From NCBI GenBank assembly GCA_006226425.1, contig SBGX01000013.1:62001-126000 (forward strand): a stretch of DNA of 64,000 nt. Direction: 5' to 3'. The notes beneath the pieces are model-generated. The model saw nothing but the letters and a program-made list of their open reading frames with translations. It was not told where the DNA came from and ran no database searches. Positions 16,616 to 20,844 of this stretch are shown piece after piece. The DNA comes from Bacteroidota bacterium (GTDB taxonomy: Bacteria; Bacteroidota; Bacteroidia; Flavobacteriales_D; Crocinitomicaceae). Made by a program: the position numbers and the translations under genes. Within the stretch, counting starts at the first letter, position 1. Every line of letters starts with the position of its first letter.

Positions 16616-17470
16616 TCAAATCTCAAATTCCCGACTGACCAGTTCCTGATCTCCGTTCATTAGCTTCACAAAATAGGTTCCGCGTTCCCAGCCTCTCACC
16701 TGTACATTAAAGCGATAGCGAACGTTTCCGGCTCTCAAAGGGGTTTCTTCATCCTTCGCTTTGACATTCCCTGCCGCATCTCTGATTTCCTGATGTACTT
16801 TCGCACCTTCCGGGCACTCAAATCGAATATCCCCATGCACCATCACTGTTTCTCTGTTGATGTTTCGATTTCGATCCAAACTCCGACGTTCCGGGGAACT
16901 ATACCAGGGGTTCTTCAAGCCTGTAATTTTGGACAACTCTTCCCTCAAAGCTAAAATGGCATCCTGATCCTTCCCATAAACACTGGAAATCGAACGACGA
17001 TCCGAAATTGTCCAAACGGCACTTTGCAGAACGTCGTTATCGTATTTTTTTCCTTTTAGAAATTTCGTCAGGGCTACCAATTCCTCGTTCGTCTTCTTTT
17101 CAGGCGTAAATGCTTTTCCCTCGCCCGGACATCTTTTACTGGCATTGAAACAGAAACCATTCAGAACCTTACTACTCCCTGAAGAGGGATTCAATTCCAC
17201 GATTAGGTCTTCCGTGGTCACCAAATTTTGTTCATCCGTTGCTTCAGCCCGAAAATAAGTTCCTGCCGGGATCAATATCCTGACTTTTTTTCTACTTAAA
17301 TTTTTGATCTTGGCCTTAATCGATTCTCCATCATAGTTCCCTGTAGCCAATCCCTGCCAGGAAATTACGTTTTGGGCAATGGCCTCGTGAAGATCCAGTT
17401 CCAGAATTTTACTTTCTCTCGAAACAGATGACAAAAGAAAGATGGTCAGAAGTAAAGCAACAACTCTCAT
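16616..17470 (-). CDS. Exported protein with thioester-domain-like C...Q pattern
   Basis: From the ATG at 17470 this is 284 residues with a short signal peptide (RVVALLLTIFLLSSVS). The N-terminal half (about 20-95) is beta-rich and contains PAGTYFRAE. The middle has GFCFNASKRCPGEG (Cys107, Cys114) followed by LQSAVWTISDRRSI (Gln149). This Cys plus Q-x-A-V-W pairing resembles thioester domains that form an internal Cys-Gln bond. The C-terminal region (about 195-284) is a beta-sandwich-like segment (VRYRFNVQVRGWERGTYFVKLMNG). A TTG two codons upstream is rejected as start. The role is unknown; surface attachment or a sensor role is speculation. Confidence 0.7.
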   Translation of the reverse strand: MRVVALLLTIFLLSSVSRESKILELDLHEAIAQNVISWQGLATGNYDGESIKAKIKNLSRKKVRILIPAGTYFRAEATDEQNLVTTEDLIVELNPSSGSSKVLNGFCFNASKRCPGEGKAFTPEKKTNEELVALTKFLKGKKYDNDVLQSAVWTISDRRSISSVYGKDQDAILALREELSKITGLKNPWYSSPERRSLDRNRNINRETVMVHGDIRFECPEGAKVHQEIRDAAGNVKAKDEETPLRAGNVRYRFNVQVRGWERGTYFVKLMNGDQELVSREFEI

Positions 17471-17522
17471 AAACAATGTAATTTGTAGTGGTATAATTTA
17501 CAAAAAAACATTCGTTACAAAC

Positions 17523-17552
17523 AAAAAAGTCCCAACATTGCTGCGGGACTTT
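17523..17552 (-). terminator. Intrinsic terminator of sodA
   Basis: An 8-bp inverted repeat (AAAGTCCC / GGGACTTT, 17526-17533 and 17545-17552) with an 11-base loop ends in a run of T on the minus strand. It lies about 20 bases past the sodA stop. Confidence 0.85.
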
Positions 17553-17570
17553 CTTAAGTAATTTTTCAGC

Positions 17571-18170
17571 TTACTTACAAGCCTGGTATTTATTCGCTAC
17601 CACATTCCAGTCGATCACATTGAAAAAAGCTCCAATATAATCCGGACGCCGGTTTTGATAGTTCAGGTAATATGCATGTTCCCATACGTCCAGTCCAAGA
17701 ATAGGTGTTCCCTGACATCCTTCTCCCATTAACGGATTATCTTGATTCGCTGTAGAACAAACACACAGTTTTCCTTCACAAACACACAGCCAGGCCCAAC
17801 CTGAACCAAAGCGTGTTGCAGCAGCCTTTGAAAACTCTTCCTTAAAAGCATCAAAGGAACCGAAAGCGGCATCAATTGCAGCTGCCAAATCTCCGGAAGG
17901 ATTTCCTCCTCCGTTTGGCGACATGACTTCCCAAAACAAAGAATGGTTCCAGTAACCTCCTCCGTTATTTCTCACTGCCGGTTTATCCATACAGTTCGCC
18001 AAAATGACTTCAATGGATTTTCCTTCCAGGTCAGTTCCGGCAATGGCGGCGTTCAAATTATTCGTATATCCCTGATGGTGTTTGGTATGATGGATTTCCA
18101 TCGTTCTGGCATCGATATGTGGCTCCAGGGCATCGTAGGCATAAGCCAACTTAGGTAGTTCAAATGACAT
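17571..18170 (-). CDS. sodA: Superoxide dismutase, Mn-type signature
   Basis: From the ATG at 18170 this is 199 residues; the upstream ATG at 18206 adds a non-conserved extension and is ignored. Metal ligands are visible in [19 protein letters not shown] and [18 protein letters not shown] and STANQDNP (the Gln) are Mn-type markers. The protein detoxifies superoxide in the cytoplasm. An unusual stretch [13 protein letters not shown] has four cysteines where enterobacterial enzymes have mostly Val/Ala; related Bacteroidota enzymes have two or three. It is monocistronic, with promoter box TAATTTTG on the minus strand at 18194-18201 and its own terminator. Confidence 0.96.
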
Positions 18171-18193
18171 AATTATGTTTTTTTGTGTTTTCC

Positions 18194-18201
18194 CAAAATT
18201 A
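18194..18201 (-). promoter_or_regulatory. Predicted -7 promoter box for sodA (TAATTTTG)
   Basis: On the minus strand TAATTTTG matches TAnnTTTG and lies 23 bases upstream of the sodA ATG. It nearly abuts the divergent box at 18214-18221. Confidence 0.5.
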
Positions 18202-18213
18202 ACCATTTAAATT

Positions 18214-19522: not shown

Positions 19523-19563
19523 GGAATAAAGATAAAAATAAATTCTTTATTTTGTATCGATTT

Positions 19564-20844
19564 ATGTGGCTCAAACGATTTATATCTGCTTCTCTGACAC
19601 TCATGCTTTTCATGCCTGTCGGAAAAGTCTTTTCGCAAAAACGAATTCTTTTTCTTGGAAACAGCTATACTGCTCAAAATAATCTTCCACTTCTCACTTA
19701 TGAATTCGCCCTGTCTGCAGGAGATACGATCTATTATGAATCGAATGCACCAGGAGGCTCTACCCTCGAAGGACATACGACCAATGCCGGAACCCTGGCC
19801 AGAATTGAGAAAGGCGGATGGGACTATGTCGTTTTACAAGAACAAAGTCAACTTCCCTCTTTTCCTGATTTCCAGGTAGAACAGGACGTCTATCCCTATG
19901 CCCAAAAACTCGATAGCCTTATTCAGGCATCTAATGATGTCTGCACAGAAACCATTTTCTACATGACCTGGGGAAGAAAAAATGGAGATCAATCCAATTG
20001 TTCTAACTGGCCCCCCATTTGCACTTTCGAAGGCATGAATGAATTACTTAGAGAACGCTACATACAAATGGCAAAAGACAATGAAGCGCTCATCTCCCCG
20101 GTAGGTGCGTTGTGGCATTTTATTAGAAAGAAGCACCCGGAATTGGAACTTTATATTGCTGATGGAAGTCACCCCTCCCTCCTGGGTTCTTACGCTGCGG
20201 CTTGCTCTTTTTACACCGTTATTTTCGGTAAGGACCCCAATATTAGTACCTATCTTCCTCAAGGATTGAGTCAGGTAGATGCCGATAAGATTAAAGTAGC
20301 TGCCAGACAGGTTGTGTATGACAGCCTATCCTACTGGCGAGCTTATGCCTCGGGTCCTAGTGCTCAGTTTCAAATCACGCCGGTGACCGTGAATCAATTT
20401 CTCTTCAGTTCCGAATACGATTCCACCAGTACCTATCATTGGACTTTTGGAGACGGCATGGAAGCTGGAATTCCCTCTCCCATACATTCCTATGCGGAAA
20501 AAGGGACTTACACCGTGCACTTGACTGTTGAAAGATGTGGAATTCAGGATAGTATGAGTCGGGAAGTCCAGGTAAACGGTCTGGCTGAACTCCAGGAAAA
20601 TGGTCTGGGTATCCGAATTTACCCAAATCCAATGACTCATCATGTCGTCTGCGTTGAGCAAGAAAACGTTGACTTTACTCAGGCTGAAATTTGGAGTCTA
20701 GACGGAAAATTGATTCTCAGCTCTTCTCTGAGCAGCCAAAAACAATTCATTGATCTAAGCCAATTTTCCGGAAAGCTCTTTTTGCTTCGCCTCAAATCCA
20801 GGCACAAGAAGGAACAACGGACATTCCTGATCAGAAGACCCTAG
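19564..20844 (+). CDS. Secreted SGNH-like protein with PKD domain and T9SS sorting domain
   Basis: The 426-residue product (ATG at 19564; the TTG at 19552 is rejected) has a signal peptide ending near VFSQ. It then has an SGNH-type domain (about 26-240) with FLGNSYTAQNN as block I, GGSTLEGHT, VVLQEQSQLP and the terminal DGSHPS block holding the catalytic Asp-His. A PKD domain (about 255-340, YHWTFGDGMEAG) and a type A T9SS C-terminal domain (about 350-426, IYPNPMTH) follow. It is probably an esterase-type hydrolase on the cell surface or released. GNS replaces the classical GDS, as in DUF4886-like members. The substrate is unknown. Confidence 0.85.
   Translation: MWLKRFISASLTLMLFMPVGKVFSQKRILFLGNSYTAQNNLPLLTYEFALSAGDTIYYESNAPGGSTLEGHTTNAGTLARIEKGGWDYVVLQEQSQLPSFPDFQVEQDVYPYAQKLDSLIQASNDVCTETIFYMTWGRKNGDQSNCSNWPPICTFEGMNELLRERYIQMAKDNEALISPVGALWHFIRKKHPELELYIADGSHPSLLGSYAAACSFYTVIFGKDPNISTYLPQGLSQVDADKIKVAARQVVYDSLSYWRAYASGPSAQFQITPVTVNQFLFSSEYDSTSTYHWTFGDGMEAGIPSPIHSYAEKGTYTVHLTVERCGIQDSMSREVQVNGLAELQENGLGIRIYPNPMTHHVVCVEQENVDFTQAEIWSLDGKLILSSSLSSQKQFIDLSQFSGKLFLLRLKSRHKKEQRTFLIRRP

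Follow-up and report, generated by a model that had tools for sequence, protein, structure and literature searches.

The window, that is, the whole stretch of 64,000 nucleotides analyzed here, contains on its minus strand a gene encoding an exported protein of 284 amino acids (Table 1). Its reading frame starts with an ATG at position 17470, with an alternative TTG start two codons upstream, and it is a single-copy gene in the source genome (3.4 Mb, 36 contigs). The first-pass annotation of this DNA, which likened the product to the thioester domains (TEDs) of Gram-positive adhesins, had noted a signal peptide, a motif with Cys107 and Cys114, and Gln149, situated 42 residues after Cys107. All of these are confirmed in the 284-residue frame, the two cysteines lying within GFCFNASKRCPGEG and Gln149 within LQSAVWTISDRRSI. 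The protein was rightly described as exported and uncharacterized: its family has no Pfam or NCBIfam model above the cut-off.

The gene of an Fe/Mn superoxide dismutase is located directly upstream on the same strand, and a homolog of this gene is found upstream, again on the same strand, in eight of 14 related loci. A stem-loop followed by a T-run, likely a terminator, lies between the two genes (the minus-strand fold has −18.2 kcal/mol, z −3.7). The idea of a common operon is weakened by this hairpin.

The C-terminal domain shares an Ig-like sandwich and a GxY motif near the end with the T9SS type A sorting domain (TIGR04183/PF18962). Assignment of the protein to the T9SS cargo is unsupported, with a TIGR04183 score of 14.9 bits against the cut-off of 23, and it is absent from the 134 T9SS sorting domains of the genome. 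One of these 134 belongs to a 430-residue protein encoded elsewhere in the window (E 2.3e-5).

Table 1. Features of the locus, with positions in the window
Feature	Position	Strand	Basis
CDS, 284-residue exported protein with a putatively permuted TED-like core	16616..17470	−	Reading frame, homologs, AlphaFold2 model
Signal peptide, about residues 1-19, without lipobox	17414..17470	−	Hydrophobic N-terminus MRVVALLLTIFLLSSVSRES; low N-terminal pLDDT
Gln segment, residues 67-87, IPAGTYFRAEATDEQNLVTTE; predicted bonding-Gln hairpin in permuted position	17210..17272	−	hhalign match with the Bacteroidota TED segment that holds the motif-assigned bonding Gln
Gln81, predicted thioester partner	17228..17230	−	106/106 homologs; flanks coevolve with Cys107 flanks
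Cys motif GFCFNASKRCP, residues 105-115	17126..17158	−	Likeness to SfbI and Cpa TED motifs
Cys107, predicted thioester Cys, strand 105-108	17150..17152	−	105/106 homologs
QxxPhiW motif LQSAVWTISD (Gln149, Trp153), second helix of three-helix bundle	17000..17029	−	106/106 homologs; helix 145-157; TED alpha2 profile match
C-terminal Ig-like beta-sandwich, residues 194-283, conserved GxY	16622..16891	−	AlphaFold2 strands; sub-threshold likeness to T9SS type A sorting domain
Likely terminator, stem-loop and T-run between the dismutase and family genes	17528..17551	−	Fold of 17505-17566
Fe/Mn superoxide dismutase gene	17571..18206	−	
430-residue protein with T9SS sorting domain	19552..20844		Sorting-domain match

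Distribution and conservation of the family

Homologs with 22-36% identity were found in 22 of 59 related genomes and, more broadly, in 72 of 240 genomes of the same taxonomic family. Among 299 genomes of the order, about 80 contain full-length homologs, not counting the remaining matches, which are short and cover the C-terminal domain only. A phylum-wide sample of 393 genomes yielded four with a homolog, the source genome included. The distribution is thus patchy, and family copies that have in-frame stops or are split into fragments (G093:C160, G100:C20, and G197:C10) are consistent with patchy loss.

Conservation was analyzed in 106 homologs, whose mean pairwise identity in the core is 26% (5th percentile, 15%). 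Gln81, Gln149, and Trp153 are invariant, and Cys107 is retained in 105 homologs; next come Gly264 and Tyr266 of the C-terminal domain (both about 98%) and Gly70. The same four residues are retained in distant members elsewhere in the phylum (L067, L072, L073, and L074), and the order Gln-Cys-QxxPhiW holds in all aligned full-length members. The Cys...Gln pattern pointed out in the first-pass annotation is therefore beyond chance, given the retention of Cys107 and Gln149 at such low identity; the invariant Gln81, preceding the Cys, had been missed there. Since these four residues stand out among 106 homologs, the thioester idea is well supported.

Other roles of Cys107 were considered. A disulfide was rejected, as Cys107 is the sole cysteine of the mature region in 17 homologs and no position carries a second cysteine in more than 28% of the family; Cys114 itself is kept in 22 of 106 homologs. 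A protease or transglutaminase was rejected as well, since the 106 homologs share no invariant His, Asp, or Glu. It is very improbable that the family descends from true TEDs but has become inactive, acting today as a module for structure or recognition. Such a loss would agree with the only exception to the Cys, a paralog in genome G277 (L113) that has Phe instead of Cys107, keeps both Gln residues and the Trp, and coexists with an intact family copy, and also with the stop-broken copies in G093 and G100. However, the near-invariance of Cys107 at 26% mean identity indicates active selection on the chemistry.

Predicted structure

The AlphaFold2 model, built with 15 sequences, has a mean pLDDT of 91.2 and a pTM of 0.83 for the full protein, and a pLDDT of 91.3 for the core alone, which comprises about 170 residues. 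It consists of strands up to residue 124, helices 129-138, 145-157, and 169-183, and the C-terminal sandwich. Cys107 is placed within its strand and Gln81 where strand 82-85 begins, while Gln149 and Trp153 share the second helix, a position that, as expected, would suit a structural role for Gln149. Foldseek, which aligns sequentially and is poor at detecting permutation, found no significant TED match for the full model, where BaTIE ranked 24th and its superposition was meaningless, and listed no TED among the top 50 for the core. The matches obtained were Ig-like scaffolds and the beta-domains of transglutaminases and glycosidases, with poor superposition, and this outcome lends the TED reading no help.

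Comparison with thioester domains

In the experimental papers of 2015 and 2018, TEDs are features of Gram-positive surface proteins (PMC4450167, PMC6194298). Their bond is formed between a Cys in the motif [YFL]C-Phi-zeta and a Gln in Phi-Q-zeta-Phi-Phi; in the solved structures strand C carries the Cys and strand Q the Gln, and the motif TQxxPhiW is located on helix alpha2 beside the bond, where its Gln and Trp form hydrogen bonds with the Cys backbone, although the bond forms without them (PMC6194298, PMC4450167).

Counterparts of all three motifs are present in the family. The window protein has FCFN at the Cys, and F, Y, or L precedes the Cys in about 81% of the 106 homologs, while Phi after the Cys is not general. 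The surrounding GFCFNASKRCP resembles AYCFNLTKYFP and AYCFNLTKHFP of the SfbI and Cpa TEDs, and the shorter pattern [FY]C.[NEQ] is shared with the Gram-positive TIE adhesins at large (SfbI 5A0L, Cpa 4C0Z, class II BaTIE 6FWV, and pLS20 TIE). The alpha2 motif corresponds to Q-x-A-[VI]-W-x-x-[ST]-D, likewise on helix 2 of three in Gram-positive TEDs, its Gln and Trp being invariant and the preceding Thr rarely kept. The Q-polar-Phi-Phi strand is represented by Q81-[TDN]-[LIF]-[IVL], with E or D before Gln81, for which a bonding role is predicted. Secretion is also shared, and class II TEDs similarly have an Ig-like domain after the helices.

The arrangement of these motifs is different. Gram-positive TEDs have the order Cys-QxxPhiW-Gln, with the bonding Gln C-terminal to the Cys and the helices, whereas in the window protein Gln81 precedes Cys107 and the order is Gln-Cys-QxxPhiW. 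The spacing is short, with only 26 residues between Gln81 and Cys107 and only 42 from Cys107 to QxxPhiW, and the host is Gram-negative. In contrast to the TIE adhesins, the protein comprises just a signal peptide, the core, and one Ig-like domain, with no sortase anchor and no isopeptide or ester stalk.

No TED profile (PF08341/PF20610) matched the window protein or 23 family members above the cut-off in the native order; NF012162 gave E 0.028 and 14 of the 40 bits required. With its rearranged motif order and TED profile scores that all stay below the cut-offs, the protein is not a canonical TED and is not filed as a TED member. The TED resemblance proposed in the first-pass annotation is real. 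In a profile search of PDB, the main matches were the TEDs 4C0Z and 5A0L, both weak, aside from designed armadillo repeats matched by chance through the QxAVW helix alone. Rotation of the profile into the TED order changed the values from 0.0098 to 0.0061 for 4C0Z and from 0.096 to 0.21 for 5A0L, and since the native-order control scored nearly alike, this test is uninformative on permutation. Comparison by hhalign with class II TEDs from plasmids of Gram-positive bacteria gave no significant match, tblastn of the domain against plasmid records gave none, and no precedent for a permuted TED or a Bacteroidota TED was found in the open-access literature.

The alpha2-macroglobulin and complement proteins would share the internal Cys-Gln thioester chemistry, if it is confirmed here. 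However, they are large multidomain proteins with near-adjacent bonding residues in the motif C-x-E-Q, which is absent from the window protein, where the candidate Gln residues are 26 or 42 positions away from the Cys.

Thioester domains of Bacteroidota and the Gln81 segment

TEDs of the canonical order (PF08341) were identified in 22 of 297 sampled Bacteroidota genomes (e.g., L171-L178 and L179-L195), mostly in reading frames of about 1,000-2,000 codons; none was found in the genome of the window. Their layout is FYCIDLxH, AAVQxAIWHFSD, an Ig-like insert, and IPQGTRYVHxxxPxxxQKLVLATP, the bonding Gln in the last segment being assigned by motif, not by experiment. These TEDs and the family, which belong to the same phylum, have in common [FY]C, Q.AIW..SD, and the segment IP.GT.[FY]...Q.LV, and differ in the Ig insert before the Gln segment and in the canonical order.

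The family segment IPAGTYF...EQNLV aligns with IPQGTRYVH...QKLVLATP so that Gln81 falls on the bonding Gln. Segment against segment, hhalign gives a P value of 4.7e-5, which becomes 4e-4 when the whole core is used; for the alpha2 segment and its equivalent in the Bacteroidota TEDs, P is about 5e-6 (5e-6 to 6e-6), and the cross pairings of the two segments give 0.22 and 0.036. None of 60 column shuffles reached the score of the Gln segment or of the alpha2 segment, while shuffles of five-column blocks, which leave motifs intact, came close to the Gln-segment score, as expected.

Thus the most likely counterpart of the TED bonding Gln, judging from the aligned segments, is Gln81, upstream of the Cys. 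By sequence layout, one cut and one rejoining, that is, a circular permutation, interconverts the canonical order and that of the family, and the Gln-Cys-QxxPhiW order therefore suggests a circularly permuted TED. The window protein is probably such a variant. As canonical TEDs also occur in Bacteroidota, both topologies are apparently present in this phylum.

We consider it unlikely that no thioester exists, the Cys, two Gln, and Trp forming a ligand-binding, metal-binding, or redox-sensing site and the likeness to TEDs reflecting convergence of short motifs. The exclusively Ig-like scaffolds found by Foldseek could be taken in this sense, as could the superoxide dismutase gene adjoining in nine of 15 loci (the window included) and the chance match of QxAVWAIS alone to designed armadillo proteins. 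On the other hand, separate motifs match TEDs, the bonding-Gln segment with the backing of column shuffles; metal or disulfide chemistry would lack a conserved His, Asp, Glu, or second Cys; and the terminator-like hairpin stands between the dismutase gene and the family gene.

Probable thioester partner

The first-pass annotation had proposed a bond between Cys107 and Gln149, with which Gln81 would be structural. This is probably wrong, and we regard it as quite unlikely. In its favor, Gln149 is invariant and Cys107 almost so, and covariation of single positions (108 with 156, and 106 with 137) indicates that the Cys strand touches the helices. However, the QxxPhiW Gln of TEDs is a dispensable second-shell residue (PMC6194298, PMC4450167), and since the TQxxPhiW Gln has this structural role on alpha2, Gln149 is to be equated with it. 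The TED bonding-Gln segment is matched by the segment of Gln81 and not by that of Gln149, and a Cys107-Gln149 bond would leave the invariance of Gln81 unexplained. Coevolution points the same way: the flanks of Gln81 and Cys107 reach the 99.1 and 99.75 percentiles of pairs of residue windows by two methods, whereas those of Gln149 and Cys107 are at the 4 and 68 percentiles and show no coevolution. As the alignment is shallow (106 sequences, Neff 73), coevolution is support rather than proof.

Proposed function

We suggest, with reasonable confidence, that the window protein is an exported, single-domain, circularly permuted relative of TEDs, in which Cys107 and Gln81 form a thioester, Gln149 and Trp153 are structural, and amines are acylated. 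Observed in its favor are the conservation, the identity and order of the motifs, the secondary structure, and the strand coevolution. Most likely the protein works like a TED, its predicted Cys107-Gln81 thioester being held by Gln149 and Trp153 and acylating amines; what we infer is that the family is homologous to TEDs through permutation, that the bond forms, that Gln81 is the partner, and that the protein is adhesive. The chain would run from the Gln hairpin through the Cys strand and the three-helix bundle with QxxPhiW to the Ig-like C-terminal domain. After export, the Cys107 thiol would react with the amide in the side chain of Gln81, located on the adjoining strand, releasing ammonia and leaving the internal thioester, while Gln149 and Trp153 on helix 2 would fix the Cys loop and take no part in bonding. 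The stored thioester could then acylate an amine of a surface or partner, be it a lysine, a polyamine, or an amino sugar, resulting in covalent attachment.

The chances are about even that the family is the founding group of a compact permuted TED with a real Cys107-Gln81 thioester, present in Gram-negative bacteria and reused in secreted (with an Ig-like tail), membrane-anchored, lipoprotein, and apparently cytosolic HEAT-repeat contexts. If so, covalent attachment chemistry would extend beyond the Gram-positive cell wall to Gram-negative envelopes, and TED chemistry would tolerate circular permutation. A compact permuted TED in Bacteroidota would supply amine-reactive protein ligation with a small natural scaffold and would put to the test which elements of the TED fold the thioester requires in order to form.

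Other proteins with the core

The core was also found in other protein contexts. In L023 and L115, a C-terminal membrane helix takes the place of the beta-sandwich, and in L067 and L074 the core follows a lipoprotein-like N-terminus and lacks the sandwich. L198:94-2334 (minus strand) encodes a HEAT-like repeat protein of 746 residues without a signal peptide, which has the Gln-Cys-QxxPhiW module at its end. This architecture suggests an intracellular use of the module, and since L198 lacks a signal peptide, at least one member must have a role other than surface adhesion.
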